Virus record (IMG/VR): IMGVR_UViG_3300005663_000052
Coordinates: 1 to 56,451 of that record
Source of the DNA: a virus
Strand: one strand, 5' to 3'
DNA: 56,451 nt
Position 1 is the first letter of the stretch. Each line of letters opens with the position of its first letter. Positions 9,507 to 52,422 of the stretch are shown piece after piece. Under the pieces are notes generated by a model. That model searched no databases. It was not told the DNA's origin and worked only from the letters and a program-made list of their open reading frames with translations. The translations under genes and the position numbers were made by a program.

Positions 9507-10002
9507 CTTCTCGCATCGTCTTGATGGCCGTACGAATGATCTCCAGATCATCAGGCACCAAGCCCGGCACGTTGCCAAACTTCTTGCCGGACCGAGCAAA
9601 GTCGATGATCTTGTCAACGGTAATGAGTTTTGCATCCCGCAACCCCTCGACTTGCCGGTCATCCAAGCCGAATTCCCTCAGTAACTCCAACTCATCCACG
9701 GGCGGCACTGGAGTAGGCTCGGCGGCTGATTCCGTCGTCTGCCCCACGGCCCGGTCGATGGCCTCCTGAGCTGAGGTCGGCAGTGCCCCAGGCTCGGAGG
9801 CCACCTTGCTGGGCTGCTCTTGGAGGAGTTGGGCTTCGACGGCAATCGGGCCATGGTCCGGATGATCCTTCTCCCACTTGTCGAGCCGCTGGATCTCCCG
9901 AAACTGCCGAATGGCATCGGCGTCGTTCTCGGCATGGTCAATGAAGTTGTTGATCTGACCGGCCGGTGGCCGACTCGCCGTGCAACTGTATTTGCCGGGC
10001 AC
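9496..10002 (-). CDS. Head-region protein with helical C-terminal domain
   Basis: 168 residues starting with GTG at 10002, coupled to the capsid stop as TAGTG and preceded by GGGAGG. The N-terminal part (IRQFREIQRLDKWE) is helical and charged, the middle is Glu/Pro-rich linker, and the last 60 residues (FGLDDRQVEGL, IDFARSGKKFG) look like paired helix-hairpin-helix elements. It may be a head completion or accessory protein; not recognised beyond that. A frame extended to 10107 would lie inside the capsid gene and is rejected. Confidence 0.6.
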   Translation of the reverse strand: MPGKYSCTASRPPAGQINNFIDHAENDADAIRQFREIQRLDKWEKDHPDHGPIAVEAQLLQEQPSKVASEPGALPTSAQEAIDRAVGQTTESAAEPTPVPPVDELELLREFGLDDRQVEGLRDAKLITVDKIIDFARSGKKFGNVPGLVPDDLEIIRTAIKTMREDAK

Positions 10003-14150: not shown

Positions 14151-14745
14151 TGGAAACTTCCTTAAACGTCAAATGGCAACGGCACCTCGGATGGGCTGGC
14201 GGCCCTTCGGGAATCGACTGCTGCCAAAACTCCCTTTCCGTCGCGTGCAACGGAGCACAAACAGGACAAACCCTTTCATCTGCCTCAGTATACCAAAACA
14301 CGCCGAATACCAATCCCGCCTCCGTCATCAGCAACAGCAACACCCAGAGTTCCCCGACGGTAATCGCCCGGGTGACTTCGGTGATCGCAATCATCACGGT
14401 GCGTTCGGCGCCGAACACCTTTTCCAGGGATTCCTCGTCTTCGATCGCCTTTTCAGTGCTCTCGACAATCTGCCTGCCCAACTCGGCCGCCCGCTGCCGA
14501 GCCCAGCCCACACCCTTCTGGTTGGCTTCCCCTGCCGATAGGGGGAAAGATTGGAGGGAGGCCAGATTGCCGGCGGCTTCACCGTGGACTTGGGCCAATG
14601 TGGGAAGAGCGGCTCCAGCCACGGCCGCGTCGAGGCCCTCCAGCCGGCCGAAGGCTATCCAGCGGTCGTGCCAATCGTTGAAGATCAGCAGCAGGGCGGC
14701 TGCCAGGGCGTCTTCATGCTGGTTGCGGGTTTTGAGATCAGGCAT
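14143..14745 (-). CDS. Minor head / head morphogenesis protein (SPP1 gp7, Mu gpF type)
   Basis: 200 residues from the ATG at 14745 (MPDLKTRNQHEDAL), overlapping the portal stop by 8 bases. A long helical region ends in the family signature: WYTEADERVCPVCAPLHA and, 20 residues on, PPAHPRCRCHL. These Cys/His residues are characteristic of the phage head morphogenesis domain. The protein joins a few copies to the portal and helps DNA exit. A longer frame starting at 14985 would read the portal C-terminus in another frame and is rejected. Confidence 0.85.
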   Translation of the reverse strand: MPDLKTRNQHEDALAAALLLIFNDWHDRWIAFGRLEGLDAAVAGAALPTLAQVHGEAAGNLASLQSFPLSAGEANQKGVGWARQRAAELGRQIVESTEKAIEDEESLEKVFGAERTVMIAITEVTRAITVGELWVLLLLMTEAGLVFGVFWYTEADERVCPVCAPLHATEREFWQQSIPEGPPAHPRCRCHLTFKEVSNG

Positions 14746-16468: not shown

Positions 16469-16469
16469 G

Positions 16470-16853
16470 CTATCGCCAGTAGAGGACATGGACTGTTGCA
16501 CTCGCTGCGGTTTCGATCATTTCGATATTGCCCATCGGAATTTCCGAATTGTTGATGATGAGAAAATCGCTGGCAAGAACAGGCATTCCCGTCGTTGCAT
16601 CCGGATCGGTACCATCGTATCGCCATCGGATGCCCTGGCCTTCCGGTACGATCATACACTTGGTTGCCCCGGAAGGAACCGTAAGTGTCTGAACGGTACT
16701 GAGCCCCGTGATTTTTTCGTAGCTGCTGGTGTAGATGTCCTGGACAACGACATCGGGCAACGTGGGTTCGACAACGGTCTGCCGTCTACCGCAACCAGAC
16801 GAAAAAACCACGGCCAATAGGACAATCGGAATCCACAATCGAAATGACTTCAT
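16470..16853 (-). CDS. Lipoprotein with phage decoration-like domain
   Basis: 127 residues. MKSFRLWIPIVLLAVVFSSGC is a lipoprotein signal with an SSGC lipobox at about residue 21. The mature part has a beta domain (TKCMIVPEGQGIRWRYDG, then PDATTGMPVLASDF) of a type often seen in small phage capsid-associated proteins. The combination implies a membrane-anchored copy of a virion-type domain. It lies directly upstream of the portal gene (one base gap) and downstream of a hydrolase-like gene. Role unknown; superinfection or assembly-site anchoring are only guesses. Confidence 0.6.
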   Translation of the reverse strand: MKSFRLWIPIVLLAVVFSSGCGRRQTVVEPTLPDVVVQDIYTSSYEKITGLSTVQTLTVPSGATKCMIVPEGQGIRWRYDGTDPDATTGMPVLASDFLIINNSEIPMGNIEMIETAASATVHVLYWR

Positions 16854-20054: not shown

Positions 20055-20387
20055 CTACTTCCCATTGCTTAGGAACCAAGACTCTGGGGCTGCCGGTATC
20101 TCCAACATGCTGATGATCGTATTCCCGGCCGGTACCGGTGGCTGCAAGACGTTGTTGGCAACGCTCCAGCCTGCTAGAAAACGCGAGCAAAACCACCGAA
20201 TCACCGAGGGGCTCGGCACGGGCCGGCCATCTTCCGATAGGCTCGATTGCGGCTCTCCCCGCTGCACAATTCTGCCTACCACCTTCGGGGTAAGAGAAAG
20301 GATGTCCGCAATCTCCTGCTGGGTGAAACCCCGACTACGGAAATCGAGCACCTGAATCTCGCACAATTCAGAGATTGGCCAGCTCAT
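20055..20387 (-). CDS. Helix-turn-helix protein next to the large terminase
   Basis: 110 residues; ATG overlaps the terminase stop (ATGA). Residues 12-45 contain GFTQQEIADILSLTPKVVGRIV, a helix-turn-helix of the sigma-4/small terminase type (written here in two parts: GFTQQEIADIL and SLTPKVVGRIV). The C-terminus is Pro-rich. It could be a second small terminase or packaging-site binder, or a regulator of late genes. Confidence 0.6.
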   Translation of the reverse strand: MSWPISELCEIQVLDFRSRGFTQQEIADILSLTPKVVGRIVQRGEPQSSLSEDGRPVPSPSVIRWFCSRFLAGWSVANNVLQPPVPAGNTIISMLEIPAAPESWFLSNGK

Positions 20388-21802
20388 CCTACTTCCACAA
20401 AATGCTCCGCCTCGGAAAACTCGTCAATCGGCGGCTGCCGGGCCACCAACGCCGCGGCCGGGAGAGCCATCACAAACGCCACGGCCCGGTCCGCATGGCC
20501 GTAACCATCCCGCACAGACTTCAGTTTGTACGTTCCAAGCTTGGTCTCTTCGATATTCAGCCGGTGGAGATCCCGCACGAACAATTCCTGTCGATAGATA
20601 CGGATCAAGCGATTGCGGAAATGCTCAAGTACCGTCCTGGCAATTTCATCCCCCGTCGCTCCGGTCATTGTGATCGGATCCATGATCACACCCCGCTGGC
20701 GAACTCGCTCAGCAATGTACTCCATTTGCCACGGATCGAAACAGCACCCCAGGCAAGGAAAATCCGCCCAGCCGCGGAGAATGGCCGATTCCACCTGCTC
20801 CAACGCAATTCGCCCGCCGATGGGCGCCCAGGATTCACACCGAGCCAACCAGATCTGCGGATTCCCCCGCTGAACGGCCAAATGAACCACGGCCGCATGG
20901 TCGTGCTGCACGCCAGCGTCTACCCCTTGGATTACGACAAACCCGTTGTCCAGAACATGCTTCGGAGTCATCGGCCCGTCCATCCGCACGGCCGCCTCGA
21001 TGTCATCCGCGTCAATCGCATTGGCTTCCGTGGCCGACCAAATCCCACGCCAGAGTCGATTGAACCGCAACGTCGTGTTCCGCATCTTGGCCCCCCTGAC
21101 GTTCCGCTGCGGAATCCAGGGAGCCGGCTCTTCGACTTTCTGGAACCACCAGTCACCTGACTGCCGATGCTCTTCCCGCCAATCGTGCTGCCAAGTTTGC
21201 AAATGGCCGGCGTTGGTGGCGATCAGCATGAAGTTGTTGCCGATCTTGTCTGCATTGTCGGCCATCGTCTCCATGAAATCCTTGTTGGTGACGTGGCTCA
21301 GCTCGTTGCAGACGGTCATGTTGGGCCGCGAACCATGGGCGCCCGTGGAAGTCGTAGTCAGCACATCCATGACCGCCTCGGTTTGTTTGCCGATGACTTT
21401 GCTCTTCTGAAATTCCACCAGCGGTGCCATCCACGGATTGAGCCGAACCACCGATTGCATGGCCAAAAGAGTCTCGGCAGCCTGCTCTTGTTGTTCGGCG
21501 CCAATTTCGATCAGAATCGGCCGACGCGAAAATATCAGCATCCACAACAGGCAACACCCGACGTCCGAATCCTTGCTAGCTCCCTTGGTCCGCTCGATCC
21601 AGATCCCCCGGTCCGGCGGCATCTTGTGATGGGCTACTGCTTGCAGACACGGCACCAACCGCTCATAGGCCTCGAACTGAAAATCCGCACAGACGTCCCG
21701 TTGCTTCTTGGTGGGATCGGCCCCCGGCACGACCAGATCCATGATGAAGGCCATGGGGTCGCGGGCGTATTGCTTGAATTTTGTAGGGGTAATGCGTTTC
21801 AC
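20384..21802 (-). CDS. terL: Terminase large subunit
   Basis: 472 residues, GTG start at 21802. The ATPase half has a degenerate Walker A (RTKGASKDSD, near residue 72) and an acidic Walker B-like CNELSHV near residue 167. The nuclease half has the RNase H-type acids: GVDAGVQHDHAAVV, CCFDPWQMEYIAER and YGHADRAVAF near the C-terminus. It cuts and packages phage DNA with the small subunit encoded upstream. The Walker A is unlike the usual GxxGxGKT, though the Lys-Asp-Ser context keeps one Lys. A hairpin sits just before the GTG and may limit translation. Confidence 0.85.
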   Translation of the reverse strand: MKRITPTKFKQYARDPMAFIMDLVVPGADPTKKQRDVCADFQFEAYERLVPCLQAVAHHKMPPDRGIWIERTKGASKDSDVGCCLLWMLIFSRRPILIEIGAEQQEQAAETLLAMQSVVRLNPWMAPLVEFQKSKVIGKQTEAVMDVLTTTSTGAHGSRPNMTVCNELSHVTNKDFMETMADNADKIGNNFMLIATNAGHLQTWQHDWREEHRQSGDWWFQKVEEPAPWIPQRNVRGAKMRNTTLRFNRLWRGIWSATEANAIDADDIEAAVRMDGPMTPKHVLDNGFVVIQGVDAGVQHDHAAVVHLAVQRGNPQIWLARCESWAPIGGRIALEQVESAILRGWADFPCLGCCFDPWQMEYIAERVRQRGVIMDPITMTGATGDEIARTVLEHFRNRLIRIYRQELFVRDLHRLNIEETKLGTYKLKSVRDGYGHADRAVAFVMALPAAALVARQPPIDEFSEAEHFVEVG

Positions 21803-21860: not shown

Positions 21861-22268
21861 TCACTCGTCATCGTCGCCGAAATCCAGATTACCCAAGCCG
21901 ACTTCTTTTTCCTTGATACCGAGCTTGAGCACCGCTGCGTTCCGTCTCATCGAAGCATCACGAACCTGCTTGGTGATTTCCCGAATAACCTTGATGCTGG
22001 GCTCCGTTTTCCAGACGCGAGCCAAGAGCTTTTGCACCAGCATCTCTTCCATGTAGCACTTGACGGCATAAGTCATGGCCGACACAAATTGAATGGGAAT
22101 CTTCAAATCATCGTCAATCCCGTACTCTCGGCAAACGGCCTGCCGCATGCTCATCCAGAATTTGAACGCCCGGTATTTCTCCGGCCCACAATCAGCCGGC
22201 CAATCGCCCAAGTCCAATCCATGAATCTGCCGACGCTGCCGCCCGCTTCTCCCCTTCACTCCCGCCAT
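21861..22268 (-). CDS. Probable terminase small subunit
   Basis: 135 residues starting MAGVKGRSGRQRRQ, the usual basic opening of small terminases. It continues with helices (FKFWMSMRQAVCREYG, TYAVKCYMEEMLVQKLLAR, IREITKQVRDASMR) and an acidic end DFGDDDE. It lies directly before the large subunit. Its first 77 bases overlap the end of the recombinase gene in another frame. Confidence 0.7.
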   Translation of the reverse strand: MAGVKGRSGRQRRQIHGLDLGDWPADCGPEKYRAFKFWMSMRQAVCREYGIDDDLKIPIQFVSAMTYAVKCYMEEMLVQKLLARVWKTEPSIKVIREITKQVRDASMRRNAAVLKLGIKEKEVGLGNLDFGDDDE

Positions 22269-22839
22269 CCCACTCCCTCCGCGAAATCACATCGACCACC
22301 CGCTGCGGCGCGATGTGGTCCAAATACCGGGCCGTAACCGCAATCGACTCATGGCCGAGCTGCTTACTGATTATTCCAATATCCACGCCTTCACGCAATA
22401 GCTCCGCGGCCAGCGTGTGCCGAAATCCGTGGGCATGAATGCGTTTTTCGATCCCCGCCCTGGCCCCCAGCCGCGGCAACAGCGTGCGAATGTACTGGCC
22501 GGCCAGCTTGCCTCCCTGAAGCGTGCAGAAGATCGGCTGATGCCCATTCAACCCGATTTCCCGCCGCCGATCCAGCCACCGTGCCAGCAGTGCCAGTGCT
22601 GCCGTGTCGATCCCCACCACCCGGAATTTGCCCCCCTTGCCGTGGCGGACAGTCACCTGGCCGGCGGCCGAATCGACGTCACGAGCCCGCAGACTGAGTG
22701 CCTCGTCAATCCGCAGGCCGGTGCGGTAGAGTAGACCGATCAGCGCCCGATTGCGGATGCCGGTGGGAGCGTCCTGCGAACAGGCTCCCATCAGCCGGTC
22801 GATTTCGTTTTGCGTGTAGACTTCAGGTGGACGTTTCAT
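22192..22839 (-). CDS. Short tyrosine recombinase (catalytic domain only)
   Basis: 215 residues from the ATG at 22839 (AAAGGGG upstream). All catalytic residues are visible: R in YRTGLRIDEAL, K in RHGKGGKFRVV, HxxR in HAHGFRHTLAAELL, H in KQLGHES, and Y in TARYLDHI. The N-terminal core-binding domain of normal integrases (about 100 residues) is missing, leaving MKRPPEVYTQNEIDRLM at the front. The C-terminal tail reads through the start of the small terminase. Could act in resolving multimers or integrating with a partner. A second, full-length integrase is at 47-48 kb. Confidence 0.8.
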   Translation of the reverse strand: MKRPPEVYTQNEIDRLMGACSQDAPTGIRNRALIGLLYRTGLRIDEALSLRARDVDSAAGQVTVRHGKGGKFRVVGIDTAALALLARWLDRRREIGLNGHQPIFCTLQGGKLAGQYIRTLLPRLGARAGIEKRIHAHGFRHTLAAELLREGVDIGIISKQLGHESIAVTARYLDHIAPQRVVDVISRREWDGGSEGEKRAAASADSWIGLGRLAG

Positions 22840-23123
22840 GGCTTTTCCCCTTTTCGTAATGGAAATATCCCCAAACCAACAAACGCGATTTTTCCTACCA
22901 ATAATTTGCCGGTTTCTGCGTCTGTTCCAATAGCACACCAATCGACATCTAGATTGCCGTGGTTGCCCGGTACCGATGCCCAATACCAATTCTCCTCATC
23001 AAACGAAACTCCCACTTCGGTACATTGCCGTCCTGCCCCTTGTTTGGAACCAAACCACTGAGAAGATGGCAGACACACCATGCCAACAATTGCCACAAGA
23101 GACTCACGTCGATTGAGTTTCAT
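22836..23123 (-). CDS. Small protein with twin-arginine-like start
   Basis: 95 residues from the ATG at 23123 (ATGA overlap, GGGAAAGAG upstream). N-terminus MKLNRRESLVAIVGMVC has two arginines and a hydrophobic run, somewhat like a Tat signal. The remainder (ENWYWASVPGNHGN, then WCAIGTDAETGKLLVG) is unrecognised. It precedes the short recombinase. Confidence 0.5.
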   Translation of the reverse strand: MKLNRRESLVAIVGMVCLPSSQWFGSKQGAGRQCTEVGVSFDEENWYWASVPGNHGNLDVDWCAIGTDAETGKLLVGKIAFVGLGIFPLRKGEKP

Positions 23124-28585: not shown

Positions 28586-30607
28586 TTAGAATAGTGGTTG
28601 CTGGGTATTGGAGGATATGAGCTTGTATACTGGGTAGGGAGTTTTTCGATTGGGCTTGATTATGGCAGTCTCGCACCACAGCATTTGAGCTAGACCCAGA
28701 TCGATAGCCCGGGACATGCGGTGATCGCCCCAGTGGAGTGCCAAGCGAATTTCTCGTTTGCCACAGCCTGGGAGATTGGGAGTTTGGGATAGATAATCTT
28801 GGATGGTTGCTGTGTCTTCGGCAGTGGTAATGGCGGTTTTTTCTTTACGGTCAGCGGCCCTTTCTTGGGATTTTGCTATGCGGTCGAATTCCTTGGCTTC
28901 TTCGAGTGGGGAGAGTTTGGTTGACCATTTTTCTAGTCCACCGAATTTCTCGGGTGAGAATTCGCCTTCGTCGACGGAGAGGGACCAATGGGAGGAATGG
29001 CCGGCGGAACCGCCAATGACGAAATTCATCTCATGGAGGCCGGGGTGGTATGGGAGTCGGCGGTTGAGAAGGATCCATTGGCGGCACCATTCTCCGATTC
29101 CTGAACCGTGGAGATCTTCGCGTTCGAGGGGTTCTTGGGAGCCGCGATTGGAAAGAAGGCCGGGGCGCTTGATGGTGTGGTGGGCGAGAATCAGCGTGCA
29201 GCCGGTTTTCAGACACATGGAATTTGCGGAACGGAGCATGGCCCCCATTTCATTGAGGGAGGCGGAATTGGCTTCACCGGCCGCTAGATAGAGCGGATCG
29301 AGAATGAGGACGTCGAGGCCGTGTGCGGCTATCAAACGGCCGATGGCGTCGAGGTGGTCTTTTCGGTCGAGTCTGGGGAGAGACTCGCTCAGAAAGAAGC
29401 CTGCGGCGTCTACCGCAGGGTCTAGGCCCTTGGAGTGGCAAATTCGGCGATAGCAGTTCTGGAGGGCAGCCAAGCCGGATTCTCCTGAGAGCAAAGCCAC
29501 TTTCCGTTTTTCGGGAATCCAGAAATGGTCCAGGAATTTCCGACGGCAGGAAATGGAAATGGCCATTTCGACAAGCAGGGAGGTTTTTAGGGATTTGGAT
29601 GGGCCGCCGATGACGCAGGGTTGCTGGGCATAGAGAACTCGATCGATGATGGGGTCGAGCTTGACGTCGGCGGCATGGAGCTGGGGGCCGGAGATGAGTT
29701 CGAACTCTGGTTGTTCGAGGAACTCGCCATGGGAGTCTACTGGCCGAGCGAGCCGGATGGCCCGGTCGACCATTTCTCGGCCGCCAGCGAGCCGGAGGAT
29801 GTCGCGAACGTCATCGCCGTGGCTTGGAGCTAGCGGGCCAGGTAATTGAGCGATGCGTAGCGAGCGGGAGTGACCGGCAAGCATTTTAGCCGTGGTCTTG
29901 GCTCCCTTTTCGCTCGGCTCATCCCGGTCTGGGACGACGATTATGTCAACCCCCTGAAATAGGTGGCAGAACTTGGCTGCCAGGTGATTGGTGTTTAGCC
30001 CGACGGTGTTGAGGTAGCCGAGTGACCAGAGTGCAGCCGCATCCTTGACGCCCTCGACCATGTACCAAGTTTCGCCTGGCTTGGCTCGTTGCCCGGGCCA
30101 GAACAGGCCGGCCGGCATCCCCCTGAGGTTTTTGCCCTTGTCCTGGGGAGAATTGAGCGTGAATCCTGAACAGCGTTCACCGTCGGGGCCGTAGACTGGA
30201 AACTTGATGCCATGGCCATCCTTCTGGAGCACGGCGCCGTAGGCTCGGAAGGCTTCGCCGGTGGTTCCCTTGGCATGGGCCAGGAAGTCGATGGGATCGA
30301 CGGTGTCGAGCAGGTTGGTCCGTTGCTGGCTGTCTGAGGAAGTCTCAAACCCCGCGGCCGCCAGAGCATCCCGACAGGACTCGTCACCCCAGCTCAGTAA
30401 CTTGGCGAACGTGTAGGAACCGCCGCCTTTGCCGCAACTGAAGCAATACCAGAGAGCTTTGTCGATGTGCAGCTTGCACGCATCAGACGTCCCACAGGCA
30501 TGAGGGCAGGTGCCAGCGAGATTGTGGCCTTCGCGACGTTTGGGTTTCCAGGAGAGAGCTTCGGCCAAGCGTTGGCCGGCATTGGCTGGCGGTGGAGAGA
30601 AAGCCAT
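28586..30607 (-). CDS. Primase-helicase (zinc finger, TOPRIM, RepA-like ATPase)
   Basis: 673 residues in three parts. Residues about 33-60: CPHACGTSDACK and WYCFSCGKGG, a primase zinc finger. Residues about 180-270: TOPRIM-type primase core with YMVEGVKDAAAL and IIVVPDRDEP. Residues about 325-520: RepA/DnaB-related ATPase with Walker A GGPSKSLKTSL, Walker B LDVLILDPLYL and a LILAHHTIKR sensor. The C-terminus adds a winged-helix-like tail. It should unwind DNA and lay primers for phage replication. The gap downstream carries iteron-like repeats, supporting a self-contained replicon. Confidence 0.85.
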   Translation of the reverse strand: MAFSPPPANAGQRLAEALSWKPKRREGHNLAGTCPHACGTSDACKLHIDKALWYCFSCGKGGGSYTFAKLLSWGDESCRDALAAAGFETSSDSQQRTNLLDTVDPIDFLAHAKGTTGEAFRAYGAVLQKDGHGIKFPVYGPDGERCSGFTLNSPQDKGKNLRGMPAGLFWPGQRAKPGETWYMVEGVKDAAALWSLGYLNTVGLNTNHLAAKFCHLFQGVDIIVVPDRDEPSEKGAKTTAKMLAGHSRSLRIAQLPGPLAPSHGDDVRDILRLAGGREMVDRAIRLARPVDSHGEFLEQPEFELISGPQLHAADVKLDPIIDRVLYAQQPCVIGGPSKSLKTSLLVEMAISISCRRKFLDHFWIPEKRKVALLSGESGLAALQNCYRRICHSKGLDPAVDAAGFFLSESLPRLDRKDHLDAIGRLIAAHGLDVLILDPLYLAAGEANSASLNEMGAMLRSANSMCLKTGCTLILAHHTIKRPGLLSNRGSQEPLEREDLHGSGIGEWCRQWILLNRRLPYHPGLHEMNFVIGGSAGHSSHWSLSVDEGEFSPEKFGGLEKWSTKLSPLEEAKEFDRIAKSQERAADRKEKTAITTAEDTATIQDYLSQTPNLPGCGKREIRLALHWGDHRMSRAIDLGLAQMLWCETAIIKPNRKTPYPVYKLISSNTQQPLF

Positions 30608-34706: not shown

Positions 34707-35110
34707 TGCACTTCCCCTCCATTTCGAGTGGCCTCAACAGCAAAATACTTCGTCTGGATTTCCTCGAAAAACGGTAGCCCGTAGCCGTGGTAATTGTCGT
34801 GATGCTGCAAGGGATCGTCAAGAATCCACAGCCACATCTTGACGACTTCATACATCAGGCTGGCCGAGATTCCCCGTTGCCCTTCCGCTTTCTCGATTCC
34901 GAAATTCAAGTCAGATTCAAGTTGAGCCAAGAGTTCTTCTCTTGCCCAGGGTTTCAGAGTACATGTTTCTTCTCCTGGTAATGCAAAACCAAACGGCTCC
35001 CATTGGTCACTCTCGAAAAACAAAACCAAGCGAGCATAATCTCGGCCATCAAGGCATTGCGACTCTCTGCCGTTTCGCACTGCTTCCAAAACTGCCTCTT
35101 TGGTTTTCAT
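34703..35110 (-). CDS. Protein of unknown function between direct repeats
   Basis: 135 residues with GGAGGGG before the ATG. Mixed helix and strand with QRGISASLMYEVVKMWLWI. The final ATRNGGE residues repeat the end of the preceding protein because both ends lie in the same 22-base direct repeat. Not recognised. Confidence 0.45.
   Translation of the reverse strand: MKTKEAVLEAVRNGRESQCLDGRDYARLVLFFESDQWEPFGFALPGEETCTLKPWAREELLAQLESDLNFGIEKAEGQRGISASLMYEVVKMWLWILDDPLQHHDNYHGYGLPFFEEIQTKYFAVEATRNGGEVQ
34712..34733. repeat. 22-bp direct repeat, copy 1
   Basis: Identical to 35116-35137. Each copy encodes the last residues of one gene and the ribosome site of the next, and together they flank a whole gene. 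Recombination between them would remove or add that gene without harming its neighbours. Confidence 0.8.
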
Positions 35111-36015
35111 GGAATTTCCCCTCCATTTCGAGTGGCCAGTTTCCTCAAAACCCCAATCCCCATCTTGTCCCCCAAAAACTCCACATGGCCGTCGGCATAC
35201 AAAAACTCCACGCCCCCATCATGCCGACTGCTGAAAAAGATATCGTTGAACAAACAGTTCTGATCCGCCCGAGCGTGATTGTACTTCCGCTCTTCCGGAT
35301 CAGTATTGAGTGGCCACGTCACATTCTTGCAACTGAACACGCAGACGTGGTTGTCAATCCCGTAGATGTCCGTTCGATAAGCCCCCGCCGTCCACACTCT
35401 CAACCAGTTGATTTGCTCGCCGACGGCCAGGGTGTTGCTCGCACCGTCATGGGTATCGGCGATTCGCACACCGGACAGTGGATACAAGATTCCGTCGGTG
35501 TGATACCCGCCACAGTGACTTGTTTCGAGTAAGCGAAATTCCGCAGCCCCAGCGACACCGCAATAATTTGCAGTCCGCCATCGGAAGACTGTTTGCATGT
35601 GCGGGTCGAACGGCTGCCGCCCATCGCTGGGACATTCGTATCCTGGGATCCTGGTGGAGGACAACCGATTGTCCAGGCCATTGCAGATCGAATCATCGAA
35701 ATCAAACGCATCGTGTCGCCCCCTTTCATCGAGAAATGGAAGGATGAGAACTCGCCAGCCTTCTCGGGTGCCCGTGGGTGTGCCGTAGGGCCCGCCTGTT
35801 GATGTGAGAAAACCAACGGCAGCTCCGCATGGGAATGATTCGTGGGCTTCGTGGTAGCTGTGGAGAGCCAGGCCGATTTGTTTGAGGTTGTTGGAGCATT
35901 GGGCCATGCGGGCGGATTCCCGGGCTGATTGGACTGCGGGGAGTAGGAGAGCGAGCAGGACGCCGATGATGGCGACTACTACTAGGAGTTCGATTAGAGT
36001 GAATGCTTTCTTCAC
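35107..36015 (-). CDS. DUF1559 prepilin-like protein
   Basis: 302 residues from the GTG at 36015 (GTGA overlap). The N-terminus VKKAFTLIELLVVVAIIG has the type IV prepilin cleavage site and helix; it continues LPAVQSARESARMAQC, SNNLKQIGLALHSYHE, then the C-terminal DHVEF-like ending (YADGHVEFLGD). This is the DUF1559 family, hugely expanded in planctomycetes and nearly confined to them. It would be inserted in the inner membrane and processed by the host prepilin peptidase. Host-derived cargo next to a symporter and an Asp-box protein. Confidence 0.85.
   Translation of the reverse strand: MKKAFTLIELLVVVAIIGVLLALLLPAVQSARESARMAQCSNNLKQIGLALHSYHEAHESFPCGAAVGFLTSTGGPYGTPTGTREGWRVLILPFLDERGRHDAFDFDDSICNGLDNRLSSTRIPGYECPSDGRQPFDPHMQTVFRWRTANYCGVAGAAEFRLLETSHCGGYHTDGILYPLSGVRIADTHDGASNTLAVGEQINWLRVWTAGAYRTDIYGIDNHVCVFSCKNVTWPLNTDPEERKYNHARADQNCLFNDIFFSSRHDGGVEFLYADGHVEFLGDKMGIGVLRKLATRNGGEIP
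35116..35137. repeat. 22-bp direct repeat, copy 2
   Basis: Identical to 34712-34733; see that entry. Confidence 0.8.
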
Positions 36016-36317
36016 AACTCCAAGTCCTCCAGTAACTTTGTCATTTGCAAGCCGTGAATATACAGAGCATCCCAGCGGCCTTCTGTGCCCATGCATGCCC
36101 ACCAGCCATTCAATTTCATTTTGTAAAATCTGGCTTTCAGGTCGGCTGGCGAACTTCTGTCAAGACAAAATGATTCGTAGCCCGTGACACCGCCCTTAGC
36201 GAGCCACACGGCTCTGTCTGCTTCTGAGTCAGTCCGTACTTCTACTTGAATGTCTACAACTCGCGGCTCGCCTGTTCGACAATCAAACCGCACGCCTTGG
36301 ATGGTTGTTGTTTCCAT
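36012..36317 (-). CDS. Small protein of unknown function
   Basis: 101 residues from the ATG at 36317, five bases after GGAGG. Starts METTTIQGVRFDCRTG; probably alpha/beta with IQVEVRTDSEADRAV and a C-terminal helix. Sits between symporter and DUF1559 genes, overlapping both by a few bases. Not recognised. Confidence 0.5.
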   Translation of the reverse strand: METTTIQGVRFDCRTGEPRVVDIQVEVRTDSEADRAVWLAKGGVTGYESFCLDRSSPADLKARFYKMKLNGWWACMGTEGRWDALYIHGLQMTKLLEDLEL

Positions 36318-37666
36318 CATTTCCTCCCCGCCCACGCGGCCGTAAGTTGCACCGCCAACCCCAACGGACTGGCCAGTAGAAACGTAATCCCCGAAAAGTA
36401 AGTCACGTAAACCACCACGGCCAGGCAGAGAAAGCAACCCAGCCATACCATACGCACGCGGGCACGCGGGATAAAGAGAGCTGTCAACATCAACCCGCCG
36501 AGCGGCGTGGCCAGCAGATTGACAACCTTGTAGCACAGCTCGAAAAGGTTGCCTTCGATAACCCCGATGATTTGAGAGAGAATGAAAATGATGATGCCAA
36601 GGCCGACGGTGGCAAGGATGGTAATTCCCTGAGAACTACGCCTAGCAATCATGGGTTGAAACCAATCACTCGCCACCGTCGACACACACGAATTGATACC
36701 GCTAGAAAGACTACTCATGGCCGCCGAAAGCAAAGCTGCCACAATCAACCCACTGACGCCCACGGGGAGCCCCGCCCCAACGATTCGGGGGAACAAATCG
36801 TCCGCAACCGAGACGGGGCTCGACCCATGGGCCATCAGACAGCACACACCAACGCACGCGAGCAAGCCTGTCAACAGACAGTCCAACGCAAATCCCCCGA
36901 AGAGAACCTGCCGGGCCTGGCGTGAATCGGCCACTGCCAAAAACCGCTGGGCATTCATTTGGTCGTCCGTTTTCACGCAAATGCCGAGCGAAAGCGATCC
37001 CACGATTGCCGTGACTACTGAAGCCCGTGCCCACGGATCGCAGAATTTGAGCACAGGCCAATCTACGTGAAAGGGCGCATTTTGCCCATTCCACACCACC
37101 TCCTTTCCAGCGATCAAAATGACAGCGACAGCCCCGCCAAACATGACCGCCGCCTGAATGCAATCAGTCAAGCCAACCATTATCACAGCGAGTGTCCAGG
37201 TTGTTGCTCGATTACTGCGACCAAAGACAATCGGGGACAGAATCACACTTGATGCAATGTGGACTATCATGGCCATCCAAGCAACCCTCATGGCCAGAAA
37301 CAACGCCGATGCAAACCGCCCCAAAAAAACTCCAAATTTTTTCTCGATGATTTTGTAGGCCGAAACCGTTTGCGAAAACCGTAGGCGGGGAATGACTTTC
37401 CAGCCGACGAACCAAAGGGCAAAAGGGGCTGCCAACAGGCCAACGTAAACGCCCGGGCCGTTGGCTGCCACTTCCCCTGGGATGGCCGTGTAGCTGATTA
37501 CCGAGAACCACGAGACAAACAACGATGCCGCCACCGGCAACGGACCCATCCGTCGGCCGCCGAGAAAGAAATCATCGGCAGTGCGGTTCCGTTGCTGGTA
37601 CCATCTGCCAATCATCAGGACTGCCAGGCAGTAGCTCGCGATAATCAGATAATCCAACCAACTCAT
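36317..37666 (-). CDS. Sodium:solute symporter (SSS family)
   Basis: 449 residues, about 12 membrane helices. Family marks: ADDFFLGGRRMGPL near residue 30, SWFSVISYTAIPGEV with the sodium-site serines, and VAALLSAAMSSLSSGINS near residue 320. The SSS family imports sugars, sialic acids, amino acids and vitamins with sodium; the substrate cannot be read from sequence alone. In planctomycetes such symporters often sit beside Asp-box proteins, as here. A full-length transporter is very unusual phage cargo and implies metabolic help to a lysogen or infected cell. Confidence 0.85.
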   Translation of the reverse strand: MSWLDYLIIASYCLAVLMIGRWYQQRNRTADDFFLGGRRMGPLPVAASLFVSWFSVISYTAIPGEVAANGPGVYVGLLAAPFALWFVGWKVIPRLRFSQTVSAYKIIEKKFGVFLGRFASALFLAMRVAWMAMIVHIASSVILSPIVFGRSNRATTWTLAVIMVGLTDCIQAAVMFGGAVAVILIAGKEVVWNGQNAPFHVDWPVLKFCDPWARASVVTAIVGSLSLGICVKTDDQMNAQRFLAVADSRQARQVLFGGFALDCLLTGLLACVGVCCLMAHGSSPVSVADDLFPRIVGAGLPVGVSGLIVAALLSAAMSSLSSGINSCVSTVASDWFQPMIARRSSQGITILATVGLGIIIFILSQIIGVIEGNLFELCYKVVNLLATPLGGLMLTALFIPRARVRMVWLGCFLCLAVVVYVTYFSGITFLLASPLGLAVQLTAAWAGRK

Positions 37667-38986: not shown

Positions 38987-39545
38987 TTGCCTGCCAGTCC
39001 GTGCCGTGCCTTGCCCCGTCTCGCCATGCCCTGTCTAGCCTCGCCTGCGACGCCATGCCCTTCCCAGCCAGACCTTGCCGATCCGGACCCAGCCACACCG
39101 CGCCTCACCGTACCTGCCGTGCCTCACCTCGCCTTGCCGGTCCTGGCCCAGCCGGTCCGGGCCTTTCCGTGCCTGCCATGCCTGGCCCAGCCTTGCCCAT
39201 CCGAACCAATCCTCGCCCATCCGTACCGCGCCAGACCATCCCTTGCCTGCCGTGCCTCGCCTGCCGTGCCGTGCCATGCCATGCCTAGCCGCACCAGGCC
39301 CAGCCTTGCCACACCGGCCGTGCCCCGCCTGCCCAGCCTCGCCTTGCCTTGCCGTACCCATCCCTGCCGGTCCGCGCCTTGTCATGCCTGCCGTGCCGTG
39401 CCTTGCCATGCCTGGCCAGACCTTGCCTGGCCGATCCAGGCCCAGCCTTGCCACACCGGCCGTGCCGTGCCTTGCCATGCCTAGCCTGACCATGCCCAGC
39501 CCCACCGAGCCCCGCCAGCCGCGCCAAGCCCATCCGGGCCACGTC
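38987..39545. repeat. Pentamer array B (punctuated NNNCC repeat)
   Basis: About 560 bases made almost only of five-base units ending in CC on the plus strand (gtgcc, ttgcc, cagcc, gatcc and the like), roughly 110 units. Now and then a four-base unit, nearly always tgcc or ggcc, interrupts the run and is usually followed by gtgcc; distances between these marks are 14, 54, 59, 69 or 74 bases, all 4 more than a multiple of 5. Sub-blocks are shared with array A. Open frames across it are low-complexity and without ribosome sites. It occupies the whole gap upstream of the ERCC4 nuclease gene. Confidence 0.9.
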
Positions 39546-40763: not shown

Positions 40764-40855
40764 TGTCTGGCTCCTTGTTCTGCATTCCCCGAGATTGATA
40801 AATTGCTCGCCATGGTTCGGGGGTGCCCATGGGTTGCTTGTATTGGTTGGTGGCC

Positions 40856-41363
40856 ATGCCGTGCCTTGCCTAGCCTTGCCGTGCCAGTCCACTCCCGGCC
40901 GCTCCTTGCCTGCGATGCCCGGCCAGTCTTCGCCAAACCCAGCCCTGCCGGTCCTGGCCAAACCCCGCCGCACCAAACCTTTCCATGCCTGCCGTGTCAC
41001 GCCTGGCCGTACCTAACCTCGCCCGGCCACGCCGCACCTCGCCCTGCCTCGCCTGCCGTGCCGTGCCCTGCCTGGCCCAGCCCCGCCAAGCCCCGCCTGC
41101 CATGCCCTACCCCGCCCCGCCGTGCCAAGCCCCGCCAATCCGTGCCTGCCGTGCCGTGCCTTGCCAAGCCTTGCCGCGCCCAGCCCCGCCGCGCCTAGTC
41201 ATGCCTGCCGTGTCTTGCCTGGCCCCGCCGCGCCGCGCCATACCTCGCCTCACCGTACCTGCCGTGCCATACCTCGCCTGGCCGATCCAGGCCCAGCCTT
41301 GCCGCGCCTGCCGTGCCGTGCCTTGCCATGCCTAGCCCAGCCCCGCCGCGCCCCGCCTGCCAA
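40856..41363. repeat. Pentamer array A (punctuated NNNCC repeat)
   Basis: About 505 bases with the same make-up as array B: runs of five-base units ending CC, interrupted by four-base tgcc marks followed by gtgcc. Blocks such as gccgatccaggcccagcc (near 41279) and gtgccttgccatgcctagcc (near 41318) are also present in array B (near 39430 and 39466). The array lies between the single-strand-binding-like gene and the conserved phage gene. No coding capacity is credible. Confidence 0.9.
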
Positions 41364-44727: not shown

Positions 44728-44801
44728 TCGTGGGGGCCAGACTCGAACTGGCGACCTCAAGGTTATGAGCCTTGCGAGCTAGCCAACTGCTCCACCCCAC
44801 A
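44728..44801 (-). tRNA. tRNA-Met (anticodon CAT)
   Basis: Reads as a complete cloverleaf: acceptor stem TGTGGGG with CCCCACG (1-72 is a U-G pair), D arm GAGC/GCTC, anticodon stem CAAGG/CCTTG with loop CTCATAA, T arm GCCAG TTCGAGT CTGGC. The anticodon stem lacks the three G-C pairs of initiators, so this should be an elongator Met tRNA, or an Ile tRNA with modified C. No CCA is encoded. It could supplement host supply or mark an integration target. Confidence 0.9.
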
Positions 44802-47140: not shown

Positions 47141-48052
47141 CTAGATCACCCGCAGTCGCGGTTTCGGCAGAGTTGGAGAAGGCAGAACATCGGCTGCCTG
47201 CCGTTGCTGAGTGATAGTCGGATCTTCGTAACGGGCCGATTGATCGGAGTGGTGGCCGAGTTGATGGCCCGCGTCTATACCGCCGAGCTTGGAGTAGCTG
47301 TAGGTGGTTCGGCGGATCTTGTGGCACAAGTCTCGTCGACTTGACGGCAGCTCTGCTTTGGTCAACAGTCGACGGAAATGAACGTAGAACGTCGAATCGC
47401 TGTGCGGCCAGGGGAATAGTAATCTGCGAGGTGGTTCCCAGATCACCTCGATAGCCACCATACAGTCGGCGGGCAATCGAAACACTTGATCGGCATTTTG
47501 CTTCTGAGTCTCCGCGAACACCAACACAAAGGATCCTTGTCGGTCCACGTTGGCCTGTTCGATAGCAAGTGCCGCACCTTTCCGGAGCCCAGTCCAATAA
47601 AGCACCTGAATGAATGCCATCCACCAATCGCAAGCAGCTATCTCGCCAATCCGCCCTGGCGTGAGTGTCGCGGATTCCAGCATTTTGGAAATCTGGTTCA
47701 CCCGAAAGGCAACAGGCACTCGCTTTGGTTCCTGCAACGGATGCACGTCTGGCTCTTCGTCCAGCACTCCCTTCCGAAACGCATACCGAGCCAATGTCAG
47801 TAACCGCGTGATGTGGAAGTTGACGGTCACGTTGCCTAACTCGGGTTTGGCTACCAGCCATGCCCGAAAGCCGTGTAGAGTATTCTCGATCAAGTCTTCG
47901 AGGTGTGGATCCCGATCGAGATACTTTTGGAAATGAGCCAGTGTGGCCAGATAGTTCTTTGCCGTACCCCGCTTCCCGCTGGGCTGGCGGCGAGGGCGGT
48001 AGACATCCACGTAGAACGTAGATAATTTGGTAGGTTTCATGGCATGAAGCAT
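47141..48052 (-). CDS. Tyrosine integrase
   Basis: 303 residues. N-terminal SAM-like DNA-binding part (LATLAHFQKYLDRDP, YAFRKGVLDE), then a catalytic domain with R in LYWTGLRKGAALAIE, HxxR-type KIRRTTYSYSK, H in GHQLGHHSDQSARY and the nucleophile in ARYEDPT. The conserved DHSD-like stretch resembles the planctomycete integrase group. Integrates and excises the phage. The adjacent non-coding stretch may be attP. An alternative start is the ATG at 48040. Confidence 0.8.
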   Translation of the reverse strand: MLHAMKPTKLSTFYVDVYRPRRQPSGKRGTAKNYLATLAHFQKYLDRDPHLEDLIENTLHGFRAWLVAKPELGNVTVNFHITRLLTLARYAFRKGVLDEEPDVHPLQEPKRVPVAFRVNQISKMLESATLTPGRIGEIAACDWWMAFIQVLYWTGLRKGAALAIEQANVDRQGSFVLVFAETQKQNADQVFRLPADCMVAIEVIWEPPRRLLFPWPHSDSTFYVHFRRLLTKAELPSSRRDLCHKIRRTTYSYSKLGGIDAGHQLGHHSDQSARYEDPTITQQRQAADVLPSPTLPKPRLRVI

Positions 48053-48364: not shown

Positions 48365-49036
48365 CTACGGGAAATGGCCAGTCGGCAATTGGAATTCCGC
48401 CGGCAACGGTTCTAGGTGCCGATTGCAGTCGACGAACTCATACCCATGGGAATCCTGGAGATCTCTCAGCCCCTGCCACATGCACCGTTTGACTTCCGGC
48501 CAGATCCGCGGCCACCGCTCAGTGATCCGGCCCTCCCAGAAATGGCCGAAGCCATCCCCCCACTCATTTCCGTAGAGGTAGATGGGCTGGCCCGGATTGA
48601 GGATGGCCGCGAAGTTGACGAGATCAGTAAAAGTAGATCCGTAGTGATAAATGGATTGTTGGAGGGTGGTGGCTGGGATCTGATTCCGGGTGCCGGGGTC
48701 CCCGCGGCGGTAGAAGAGCCCTGGGACACCTCGGACTCTCACTCTGCCCTGAGCCTCGCTGGCGAAAGCCTCTTTGCCGACGAACATGAAGCGGAGTCGC
48801 TCCTGGAGCCTGGCATCGTCGGCAATGGCCGCCAGCTCGACGTCAAGCTGCCTCACCATCTCGGCCGAGTGGTTGTCGCCCCAGGTCCACACCGTCGGCC
48901 GAAAGCCCGCTGACTGCCAGTGAGACAGGAATGAGTTGCAGGTGAATACCCACTCAGCCTGATCGAGGTGTTGCCGCTGACTGTTTGTCAAATCTGCGAG
49001 GCTAAAACTGCTGCCGAGGACATACGATGGAGCCAT
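48365..49036 (-). CDS. Possible GT42/DUF115-like glycosyltransferase
   Basis: 223 residues with GGAG before the ATG. The N-terminus MAPSYVLGSSFSLADL followed by WVFTCNSFLSHW and FRPTVWTWGDN has the layout of sialyltransferase-like (GT42) and DUF115 proteins: a first strand with a Gly/Ser loop, an Asn strand and an aromatic DN strand. Downstream NPGQPIYLYGNEWGDG could be the donor site. In a cassette with NeuA and NeuB it could transfer the activated sugar. Family match is weak. Confidence 0.45.
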   Translation of the reverse strand: MAPSYVLGSSFSLADLTNSQRQHLDQAEWVFTCNSFLSHWQSAGFRPTVWTWGDNHSAEMVRQLDVELAAIADDARLQERLRFMFVGKEAFASEAQGRVRVRGVPGLFYRRGDPGTRNQIPATTLQQSIYHYGSTFTDLVNFAAILNPGQPIYLYGNEWGDGFGHFWEGRITERWPRIWPEVKRCMWQGLRDLQDSHGYEFVDCNRHLEPLPAEFQLPTGHFP

Positions 49037-50009
49037 GGAATTCTCCGATTGCTTGCTGCGCTACCTTGTGCTGTTGTTGAATGGTATCGACGACAACAGA
49101 ATAGTCATGTCCCAAGCACTTCTCAATCGCCCCGTCAATTTGCTTGGCAATTTCTGGAGCTTCAATATCACACGGAGACTGCAAAGCTTCAGACATTCCC
49201 TTACCGCGAATATCTGTCTTGATGAGGATGCTCTTGGTACCAGCAATCAGGCTTGCGATATGGCTATGAACTCTAAACCCAATATGCAAATCGCTGTTGC
49301 GACACACCGATAACATCCTCTCGAATGAACCGGCAACTTCCACAATTTCAACGCCGTGTTGTCGACAACAAAGGATGAGATCTTCGTCCTCGCCAAAAAT
49401 CCCGTGATTGAATAAGCATTGGATCTTAGATACAGGGAACCGTTTTAGTAGATAGGAGAGAACATGATGATTCAACCTGGACCATCTGATAAATGGAGCA
49501 CCGCTGGAAAAAACAACGGTAGCGGGTTCTTCGCTCCTGAAGGAAATCTCGTCTACGTCGTTGTGAAACCAAGTAGAGCAACCAACAAAGGTTGAAGTCA
49601 CTCCCTTGCTCTGCAATTCTCGCTGAGTAACTTTGTCTCTGGTAACAATGACCATCTGCTTCAAGGCATCGACTATACCGTCTTTCAATGTTAGCGAATA
49701 AGCATCGGGATCTTTTTCAATGTCCCCCAGCCCAACACCCCATGCCACAACCGGCACCCTGACGGCATCCAGATCCAGGCCGTAAAAATCAAACACGCCA
49801 TTGCATATACACGGGCCGCCGGGAATCACCAGGCAGTCACTGGCGTTGATGACTTCTAGTTGCTGAGCAGTAAATGATTGCCTGCTCTGCTCGGCCGTCC
49901 AGCGGATTACGTCAAAGCCAGCGTCACGAAAGAGCTTGCTGGTAGATGCCACGATGAAATGGTCGCCAGCATTCTTCCGGGCTCCACTGAGAAGTACAAT
50001 TCTGGCCAT
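49002..50009 (-). CDS. Polysaccharide pyruvyl transferase family protein
   Basis: 335 residues. Marks of the family are LLSGARKNAGDHFIV near the start, CLVIPGGPCICNG, TRDKVTQRELQSKG and IGFRVHSHIASLIAG with the RxHxxxxA-type motif near the C-terminus. Such enzymes either add pyruvate ketals to polysaccharide or have been recruited for other sugar steps. Overlaps the next gene by 35 bases, suggesting coupled expression. Confidence 0.8.
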   Translation of the reverse strand: MARIVLLSGARKNAGDHFIVASTSKLFRDAGFDVIRWTAEQSRQSFTAQQLEVINASDCLVIPGGPCICNGVFDFYGLDLDAVRVPVVAWGVGLGDIEKDPDAYSLTLKDGIVDALKQMVIVTRDKVTQRELQSKGVTSTFVGCSTWFHNDVDEISFRSEEPATVVFSSGAPFIRWSRLNHHVLSYLLKRFPVSKIQCLFNHGIFGEDEDLILCCRQHGVEIVEVAGSFERMLSVCRNSDLHIGFRVHSHIASLIAGTKSILIKTDIRGKGMSEALQSPCDIEAPEIAKQIDGAIEKCLGHDYSVVVDTIQQQHKVAQQAIGEFHGSIVCPRQQF

Positions 50010-50678
50010 TCAATCGGCAATCCACATCCCATCGGCATCAAACCGCTTGCTGCTGAGTTCCTTAGCCAATTCAACGATTGACCAATCGATGTCTCGCTTT
50101 GCCGGTGGTGGTTTGATTCGTTTGAGGACAGTCAATCCGCAGCAATTCCGAAAATGTTTAACCATCTGCCATTCCATGGAAACAATCAATCCATCAACTA
50201 CAGCCTTCATACCCGGCAAGCCAGTTGAGCCGACTCTACCGCAATCTTCCGTGTCGTGGAGAATCAGCCAACGACCCACAGACGAAGCGTGCAGTTCCAA
50301 TTCAGCCGCCAGTTGAATGCCGTGGTGCCAGGTATCAATGAACAACAAGTCCGTTGGCTCGATCGGTTTGATGTCCAGGACATTCACGCAGTAGAATTCC
50401 CACTGCACTCCGCCGTCTCTGGCAATACGTCTGAAGTCATCCAGCGAGAACCAACAGTGAATGTCGTAGCTTGACAATTGCTCGGGACGGCTGGCCAGAA
50501 AGGCAACTGTGGAATTGCCGTAGTAGACACCGAACTCCGTGACTCGCTGGCACGACTCGGCGTAAGTTCTGAGCGTCGGGAGATGTTCCCAAATATCCGA
50601 AGGTGTCCTGCACCGCCGCTGATACTCAGGCGTCAAGGAAAGCAAGCTGCTGGAGACGCTGGCACCTGGTGTTTCCAT
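50010..50678 (-). CDS. Class I methyltransferase-like protein
   Basis: 222 residues. VTEFGVYYGNSTVAFL near residue 46 is the glycine loop of the methyltransferase fold (E-x-G-x3-G-xS), and DLLFIDTWHHGIQLA and LILHDTEDCGRV are later strands with acidic ends. It resembles the Methyltransf_24 and cephalosporin hydroxylase-like group found in surface sugar clusters. It overlaps the NeuB gene by 46 bases. Substrate unknown. Confidence 0.65.
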   Translation of the reverse strand: METPGASVSSSLLSLTPEYQRRCRTPSDIWEHLPTLRTYAESCQRVTEFGVYYGNSTVAFLASRPEQLSSYDIHCWFSLDDFRRIARDGGVQWEFYCVNVLDIKPIEPTDLLFIDTWHHGIQLAAELELHASSVGRWLILHDTEDCGRVGSTGLPGMKAVVDGLIVSMEWQMVKHFRNCCGLTVLKRIKPPPAKRDIDWSIVELAKELSSKRFDADGMWIAD

Positions 50679-51421
50679 TTTGGATAGCCACGAATGATGG
50701 GTGGAGCTTCGGCCCAGATGGCCTTTTCAATTTGCCGGCCGTAGTATACCAATGCCGCCAATTCATTCGGCGTGATGCTGCAAATATGATCGCTGCCGGG
50801 AAGTGTCTTGTCCAGGGTGAAATGCTTTTCGACAAAGCCTGCCCCACGGCCAATGGCTGCGAGAGAAACGCCGATACCTGGGGAATGATCGCTGATGCCA
50901 AAGTACGATGTGTGCGGATAGTGGCGTGGCTGAGACAAGTAATCGGCATACGTTGCAGGGTAGGCCGGCACACAGAATAGGTAATGGACGTTTGCCCATT
51001 TCCCTAAAAGACCATCTGCCTTTTCCGCATCAATCATGCCGAGCGAGGCATACACTGACTTGCCAGTACCAATGACCTTGCGTGCAAAGTCTGGCGTTTT
51101 TTTCAGGGTCCGCGACGCCAACTTGTACCGCCCGATGCCAGCACTCTCTGTCCAGCCGAATCGTTCGTCATCGAACACGGAGAAGAATGGTTCAATATTT
51201 TCTTCTTCGCACCAACCGAGGATCTGATCGAACACCGACCTTGAAATTGCACATCGCTTGCCTTCCGGAATCAACTCGGGTTCATCGGCAAAAACATCCT
51301 CGGGATCATAGAGCTGGAATTTTGCCAAATCGGCCCCTGCATTGGCGGCCTGCCGAATGAGTTCCCGGCACAAGTTCCAGTCGCCGTTGTGGTTGATTCC
51401 AATCTCAGCACAAATCAACAT
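50633..51421 (-). CDS. neuB: NeuB-type nonulosonate synthase, short form
   Basis: 262 residues from the ATG at 51421 (GGAGGC upstream). The TIM-barrel motifs of NeuB/SpsE are intact: ICAEIGINHNGDW, GADLAKFQLYDPE and, near the C-terminus, GISDHSPGIGVSL and GFVEKHFTLDKTLPGSDH with the C-terminal SITPNELA. It condenses phosphoenolpyruvate with an N-acyl sugar to give sialic acid or a relative. Usual size is 340-350 with a C-terminal SAF (antifreeze-like) domain; that domain is missing here, replaced by a short basic tail. Confidence 0.85.
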   Translation of the reverse strand: MLICAEIGINHNGDWNLCRELIRQAANAGADLAKFQLYDPEDVFADEPELIPEGKRCAISRSVFDQILGWCEEENIEPFFSVFDDERFGWTESAGIGRYKLASRTLKKTPDFARKVIGTGKSVYASLGMIDAEKADGLLGKWANVHYLFCVPAYPATYADYLSQPRHYPHTSYFGISDHSPGIGVSLAAIGRGAGFVEKHFTLDKTLPGSDHICSITPNELAALVYYGRQIEKAIWAEAPPIIRGYPKWKHQVPASPAACFP

Positions 51422-52106
51422 TCGTCTGCCTCCGATGCAAAAGGAACTCTGCCCAATCAACGTCCCGTTGGTCGTCAATTTCGACAACCTCGTCATAGCC
51501 ACAGATTATCCCGCGGTGTTCCATGCCGTCAAGGGATGTTCGATCTGCAAAGATCTGCTGGAGGGCTGTCGTTCGGTATACCCAGCCAACGGCCGTCTCC
51601 ATGTAGACTACAGGGAACTCCTGGGAAGGTATCCGCATGTTGCCGAGACAAAAATTGTGAATGCGGCTTCGGTAATCCGAATGACGCATCCGATACGGGT
51701 GATCTTGTGGCTGTGTCAAAACATTGACCATCTGGGCACGGGTGGCTACTAAGTGCTCAATCATTCGATCGAAAATTCTCGACGGCCGGATTGGAGTATT
51801 GGCGTAAGCCAGCAAAACACAGTCGTATTCACCGTCAGTCTCGCCGACGACAAATTCGAGCACCTTGAAAAGATCGAATTCCCGGGCTAAGTGGACGGGC
51901 TCTTCCAGCCATAAAGCACCTCCGGCTTCCGTGATTACCTGGGCTTCTGGATCATCGCTCACTACCACCACATCGGGCTGGTAGGAACAGGCAGCCACGT
52001 GTTCCAGCGTCCACCGCAGGCACGGCTTGCCGGCAATCATCATGGTGTTCTTGCCCGGCACGCGGGATGAGTTCTTGCGGCAGGGGATGACGGCGAGAAT
52101 TTTCAT
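51405..52106 (-). CDS. neuA: CMP-nonulosonate cytidylyltransferase (NeuA-like)
   Basis: 233 residues from the ATG at 52106. Opens MKILAVIPCRKNSSRVPGKN with the CTP-binding loop of NeuA/PseF-type enzymes, then VVVSDDPEAQVITEA, LLAYANTPIRPSRI (the usual LQPTSPLR site) and EIDDQRDVDWAEFL near the end. It activates a nonulosonate to its CMP form for transfer. The overlap with NeuB by 17 bases shows one transcription unit. It cannot be told whether the sugar is Neu5Ac, Kdn, legionaminate or pseudaminate. Confidence 0.85.
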   Translation of the reverse strand: MKILAVIPCRKNSSRVPGKNTMMIAGKPCLRWTLEHVAACSYQPDVVVVSDDPEAQVITEAGGALWLEEPVHLAREFDLFKVLEFVVGETDGEYDCVLLAYANTPIRPSRIFDRMIEHLVATRAQMVNVLTQPQDHPYRMRHSDYRSRIHNFCLGNMRIPSQEFPVVYMETAVGWVYRTTALQQIFADRTSLDGMEHRGIICGYDEVVEIDDQRDVDWAEFLLHRRQTNVDLC

Positions 52107-52116
52107 GGAGTTGCCC

Positions 52117-52422
52117 CTACTCGCTTCGGTCCCAAATGTCCAATAATCCAAATATCCAGTACCAAATGTCACCAAAGAAGTCCGACAAGGGTTCGCACGG
52201 AATTTGATAGATGAAGAACCTCATCAGAATCTCAGGTGGCAGCATCACATGTACAATTACGACCTCCCAGATATACACCCACCAACGTCGAGGAAATGGT
52301 GATTCTGATGTGTATTCGTACCACCGAAGGAACGGATAAAACACAAACAGGAGAAACGGACAGACCACAAGCACGAAAAAGAGAATCTTGAACGGCAGGA
52401 GAATGGCAGCGAAGATTTTCAT
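52117..52422 (-). CDS. Membrane protein of unknown function
   Basis: 101 residues, two or three hydrophobic segments (FKILFFVLVVCPFLLFV, VVIVHVMLPPEILMRFF) and a Trp-rich C-terminus (DIWYWIFGLLDIWDRSE). It precedes the sugar cassette. Not recognised. Confidence 0.5.
   Translation of the reverse strand: MKIFAAILLPFKILFFVLVVCPFLLFVFYPFLRWYEYTSESPFPRRWWVYIWEVVIVHVMLPPEILMRFFIYQIPCEPLSDFFGDIWYWIFGLLDIWDRSE

Follow-up and report, generated by a model that had tools for sequence, protein, structure and literature searches.

Among the sugar genes known from temperate phages, the gtr serotype-conversion cassettes consist of sugar-modifying genes that lie near the integrase and move an existing glucose. 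The bacterial synthases NeuB, LegI, PseI and SpsE are proteins of about 330 to 385 amino acids with a C-terminal SAF (antifreeze) domain. In NeuB of Neisseria meningitidis (NmNeuB) the SAF domain caps the active site of the neighbouring monomer and supplies Arg314, and changing this arginine to alanine abolishes activity (PMC6795526, citing Joseph et al. 2013). Phages have been described both as changing the serotype of their lysogens and as glycosylating their virions (PMC12619734). Our literature search on SAF-less NeuB proteins or phage nonulosonate genes returned nothing direct; a 'NeuB_NnaB' match is given for the DLP4 lysis module (PMC6469090). Here we describe a phage locus in which a NeuB-family synthase lacking the SAF domain is encoded next to a NeuA-like enzyme.

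A putative five-gene sugar cassette beside a phage integrase

The window (the whole stretch of 56,451 nucleotides that was analyzed, IMG/VR record IMGVR_UViG_3300005663_000052) is classed as linear, no terminal overlap indicating a circular genome was detected in it, and its plausible genes lie nearly all on the minus strand. Between 48365 and 52106, five ORFs on the minus strand touch or overlap one another and are preceded by a small hydrophobic ORF:

52117 to 52422, minus strand: hydrophobic protein of 101 amino acids, ending 10 nt upstream of the NeuA-like gene, no Pfam match
51405 to 52106, minus strand: NeuA-like CMP-sugar cytidylyltransferase of 233 amino acids, CTP_transf_3 (PF02348)
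50633 to 51421, minus strand: SAF-less NeuB-family synthase (phosphoenolpyruvate [PEP] condensation) of 262 amino acids, PF03102
50010 to 50678, minus strand: probable class-I SAM methyltransferase of 222 amino acids, Methyltransf_24 (weak assignment)
49002 to 50009, minus strand: polysaccharide pyruvyltransferase family protein of 335 amino acids, PF04230
48365 to 49036, minus strand: orphan ORF of 223 amino acids, which only its position and short motifs mark as a candidate transferase

Because the overlaps, in order from the NeuA-like gene to the last ORF, are 17, 46, 0 (abutting) and 35 nt, the five ORFs look like one translationally coupled unit, and the 101-residue ORF possibly shares their transcript, judging from its position and sequence. 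This arrangement, together with the Pfam families, bears out the original prediction of an overlapping unit of NeuA- and NeuB-type genes with methyltransferase-like and pyruvyltransferase-family genes. Neither promoter-like matches in the region (8 versus a shuffled expectation of 4.1 ± 1.9) nor terminator-like matches (6 versus 5.6 ± 2.6) were clearly above expectation, and a PHROG search gave no match for any of the five proteins. The prediction had named absence from related phages and an assembly break as points that would speak against it. The full five-gene set was indeed absent from the other phages found, so that it is known from a single phage record, and a search for close whole-phage relatives gave no DNA match covering the cassette; the five joined, overlapping frames show no sign of a break.

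The same record carries genes of a tailed phage, including an integrase downstream of the cassette:

10002 to 11165, minus strand: head maturation protease/major head protein
14738 to 16501, minus strand: portal
20384 to 21802, minus strand: terminase
28586 to 30607, minus strand: primase/helicase
47141 to 48052, minus strand: tyrosine integrase (Phage_int_SAM_5, 1.1e-11; PHROG integrase, 6.7e-14)

With the integrase adjoining the cassette, virion-like genes at 53 to 56 kb directly preceding it, and terminase, portal and head genes on the same record, the locus has the position expected of a conversion cassette. Like the gtr-type cassettes it places probable sugar-modifying genes near an integrase, but it appears to build and activate an acidic sugar of its own.

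Relatives of the terminase (up to 31%) were found in 16 of 294 Planctomycetota genomes and neither among 50,697 named phage records nor in viral contigs. One of these 16 genomes also contains relatives of the window portal and head proteins, and no NeuA or NeuB was detectable within the 80 kb fetched from it (G205). The DUF1559 family is typical of Planctomycetota, and the window holds a DUF1559 pseudopilin-like gene, together with a sodium:solute symporter gene, at 35107 to 37666 (minus strand); the DUF1559 protein had no match among the 50,697 phage records. From the terminase relatives and the DUF1559 gene, the host of the phage is probably a planctomycete.

Several other features of the window were recorded: a second, different tyrosine recombinase (22192 to 22989, minus strand); a complete tRNA-Met (CAT) gene (44728 to 44801, minus strand), possibly a phage tRNA or an attachment site; GC-rich internal repeats of 72% to 94% identity in a low-complexity coding region (39092 to 39511 and 40853 to 41357); and a BNR/Asp-box protein (PF13088; 33232 to 34482, minus strand) with a signal-peptide-like N-terminus and three S-x-D-x-G-x-x-W-like boxes. 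The latter weakly matches sialidase B/NanC, which places a sialidase-like fold alongside the NeuA- and NeuB-like genes.

A NeuB-type barrel that ends before the SAF domain

The synthase ORF starts at an ATG, its frame running upstream to a GTG at 51502, and contains the NeuB barrel domain (PF03102, 1.4e-36, 126.7 bits versus a cut-off of 22.1). Its best NCBIfam match, NeuB_NnaB (4.5e-41), scores 141 bits and falls far short of the equivalog cut-off of 399.65, and the PseI equivalog gives 96.5 bits versus 340.25. The ORF stops after the barrel, so that the C-terminal SAF/AFP domain and Arg314 are absent, and the next ORF is the methyltransferase-like one. An AlphaFold2 model built with 16 relatives (pLDDT 87.8) shows a complete (beta/alpha)8 barrel with a disordered tail and no C-terminal domain.

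The solved structures closest to this model are 6ncs from Leptospira borgpetersenii (Z 31.5), NmNeuB (Z 29) and PseI (Z 27), followed by DAHP and KDO8P synthases (Z about 19). These last two are likewise PEP-condensing barrels without SAF, but they share 5% to 14% identity with the window protein, which by sequence clearly belongs to the NeuB family. The 6ncs chain, at 30% identity, has barrel length (285 to 290 residues) and no SAF domain by its matched range. NmNeuB (1XUU) superimposes on the barrel with an rmsd of 2.3 over 237 residues at about 26% identity.

The original prediction had treated loss of active-site residues as evidence against itself, and on this point the synthase gives a split answer. 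On one side, the window synthase keeps the same residues as NmNeuB at E25, K53, Q55, K129, S213, H215, E234 and H236, and these eight metal/PEP positions are invariant or nearly so across 47 short relatives; the chemistry on PEP and metal thus looks intact. On the other side, the position of T110 is serine in the window synthase and all 47 relatives, and G133-E134 of the S-G-E motif is replaced by R104-T105. Of the 47 relatives, 38 have arginine in place of G133 and all have lost E134 (mostly to Ser or Thr), whereas 13 of 14 long enzymes retain E or D at 134. The 6ncs chain differs again, with Cys-Asp at these two positions. We infer from these replacements that the sugar side looks changed. 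With the SAF domain and Arg314 missing, activity of the synthase on N-acetylmannosamine-like sugars is doubtful.

Most short synthases fall in a largely viral clade

In a first tree of 81 sequences, 15 short synthases including that of the window formed one group (support 100/100), separate from every SAF-bearing or reference enzyme. Because this tree included SAF columns, it was rebuilt on barrel columns only. The resulting tree of 92 sequences again groups the short synthases, now 48 including the window protein (SH-aLRT 95), and places the latter with those of loci L152, L153 and L154 (support 100). The 47 SAF-less co-members of the clade come from viral contigs (44) and bacterial MAGs (3). 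To the question of which sugar branch the NeuB-type protein belongs to, raised with the original prediction, the answer is a separate SAF-less clade outside the NeuB, LegI, PseI and SpsE branches. Membership of a branch without the SAF domain suggests that the sugar made could differ from a normal sialic acid.

A single origin of all short NeuBs was rejected: six of them (L128, L194, L201, L210, L214 and L217) fall outside the main clade, which indicates that SAF was lost more than once. The likewise short 6ncs is outside the window clade in both trees.

Among the distinct NeuBs that the same query recovered from the viral collection, 51 were short and 33 longer; of the best 80 bacterial and archaeal species matches, 3 were short (two Omnitrophota and one Bdellovibrionales MAG), lengths being mechanical ORF calls. 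As the searches differ in pattern and the query was itself short, these figures show a contrast and do not give a rate. Of 193 Omnitrophota genomes searched with a profile, 80 had a match, three of these being clear short proteins, and among the named phage records 3 of 50,697 had a NeuB match. In Planctomycetota, NeuB was found at E 1e-20 or better in 47 of 294 genomes, with open frames all of at least 286 amino acids. Capture of the gene from a planctomycete host is unsupported, the best identity among the 294 genomes being 39%. Two loci (L007, an IMG/VR contig whose NeuB is identical in the tree to Campylobacter jejuni LegI, and L186) carry LegI-type NeuBs identical to that of C. jejuni; they are probably host sequence under a viral label, as IMG/VR contigs are not all phage.

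A recurring synthase-cytidylyltransferase pair

Among 54 other loci with a short synthase, 43 encode a NeuA-group cytidylyltransferase no more than 4.5 kb from it and without exception on the same strand, and in 29 of those the distance is at most 150 nt. Given this recurrence, the two-gene module is real and phage-enriched. Frequent neighbours in the 54 loci were GT2 transferases (31 loci), SDR epimerases (30) and a 437-residue peptidase-like protein (16), the families being named partly by sequence look-alikes and not all by profile search. The peptidase-like protein has 411 to 455 amino acids and an ITGxG motif across its 16 loci, which include L003, L004, L006, L027, L037, L069 and L152. 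In two bacterial loci an asparagine-synthase-like gene of about 616 codons directly precedes the short NeuB (L039, 7223 to 9073; L069, 3766 to 5619).

The nearest synthases (56% to 59% identity), those of L152 to L154, resemble the window protein in lacking SAF, in having an adjoining cytidylyltransferase and in lying in a phage genome. Their surroundings differ: they sit in large glycan-gene clusters beside T4-like, phage-type replication genes (SbcCD-like, ribonucleotide reductase and DnaB-like helicase, judged by eye from translations), without the methyltransferase, pyruvyltransferase and last-ORF set of the window. Four further loci (L002, L027, L034 and L037) were confirmed as phage by tail or exonuclease PHROGs nearby.

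The NeuA-like protein of the window matches CTP_transf_3 (3.5e-9, 37.2 bits versus a curated cut-off of 22.6). Its best NCBIfam match is PseF, over the full length (2.1e-13), with 50.5 bits versus an equivalog cut-off of 205.7, and KdsB gives 24.4 versus 155.2; matches in the PDB include the CMP-NeuAc synthetase 6ifd and also KdsB. Its residues S13, K19, N20 and D215 recur in the cytidylyltransferases that adjoin other short synthases. A single-sequence scan of viral contigs with this protein as query gave no match.

The remaining cassette proteins

The 335-residue protein belongs to the polysaccharide pyruvyltransferase family (PS_pyruv_trans, 1.2e-17, 65.2 bits versus 25.3), and scores far under the cut-offs of the CsaB (28.7 versus 213 bits) and WcaK equivalogs. 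It had no relatives in viral contigs and two weak matches (E about 1e-5) in 199 Planctomycetota genomes. The 222-residue protein matches Methyltransf_24 under the curated cut-off (E 0.0013, 20.0 bits versus 26.3) and had no PDB or NCBIfam match. The last ORF matched nothing in Pfam, NCBIfam or the PDB, and searches of viral contigs, phage records, 294 Planctomycetota genomes and the fetched loci gave no relatives. It has a motif resemblance to GT42 transferases (VLGSSFSL..VFTCNSF), with pairwise z scores of 2 or less, and hhalign against an alignment of C. jejuni Cst-like/GNGPSL (GT42) proteins was not significant (E 0.21), so that the GT42-like assignment in the original prediction is statistically unsupported. 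Its single-sequence AlphaFold2 model has a pLDDT of 36.5, and its GC3 is 0.73 versus 0.51 for its neighbour.

Discussion

On balance we favor the view that a temperate tailed phage, whose host is probably a planctomycete, carries the cassette as an accessory ('moron') operon, which would make and activate a non-standard ulosonic acid and thereby alter a surface. This reading draws on protein families, catalytic residues, operon layout and the recurrence of the module, and its chemistry is deduced from these. The NeuB-fold enzyme would form a 2-keto-3-deoxy-ulosonic acid by condensing PEP with a sugar aldehyde, and the NeuA-like enzyme would couple this acid to CMP. No sugar-precursor genes (NeuC, aminotransferase, dehydratase) were seen among the larger window ORFs scanned, so the acceptor sugar would have to be supplied by the host. 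The methyltransferase-like and pyruvyltransferase-family proteins may decorate the sugar or its carrier glycan, a transferase, which might be the last ORF or a host enzyme, would attach it, and the lysogen or infected cell would have an altered surface (lysogenic conversion). In this form the earlier idea of a phage-borne sugar-making unit survives, carried by the NeuB-fold synthase, the CMP-activating enzyme, the decorating genes and the recurring pair; its 'sialic acid-type' label does not.

Since the operon lies between virion genes and the integrase, surface alteration is its most likely use, and the main alternative is that the sugar is placed on tail or capsid proteins of the phage itself and not on the host envelope. 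The virion-like genes directly before the operon, the known virion glycosylation of mycobacteriophages (PMC12619734) and the occurrence of synthase relatives in large phages that carry extensive glycan clusters all agree with such a target. However, the adjoining integrase fits conversion equally well and no target protein was identified, and we regard decoration of the virion as somewhat unlikely.

We would give still less weight to a conventional pathway to sialic, legionaminic or pseudaminic acid, in which the short NeuB would need no SAF domain to form a standard nonulosonate. NeuB_NnaB is the best NCBIfam match, and the SAF-less Leptospira chain 6ncs was deposited as a sialic acid synthetase; yet this label is the deposited name only, as we found no report of 6ncs activity. 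The scores under the NeuB and PseI cut-offs, the position outside the NeuB, LegI, PseI and SpsE branches, the loss of the E134 and Arg314 equivalents and the lack of precursor genes among the ORFs scanned argue against this pathway. It is quite improbable that the cassette came from a host glycan locus as cargo that is now decaying or without function: the last ORF is an orphan of deviating GC3 and the five-gene set is unique, but every frame is open and overlapping, the catalytic positions are intact, and the nearest kin of the synthase are phage-borne and not planctomycete.

Returning to the operon as a source of a non-standard ulosonic acid, we tentatively propose that the SAF-less, Arg-motif synthases may differ in function from other NeuB enzymes and form a class of their own, carried largely by phages. 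Such a class would condense PEP with another acceptor, unlike N-acetylmannosamine and perhaps phosphorylated or acidic, and would provide phages with CMP-activated ulosonic acids that the hosts do not make. To annotate these genes as 'sialic acid synthase' could then be an error. If this proposal is true, SAF-less synthases would provide a test of why bacterial NeuB enzymes require the SAF domain, and the cassette would add a rare accessory function to the phages of Planctomycetota, few of which, to our knowledge, have been described. Phages would own a branch of sugar-acid chemistry separate from the sialic, legionaminic and pseudaminic acid enzymes, and would bring in new surface sugars.
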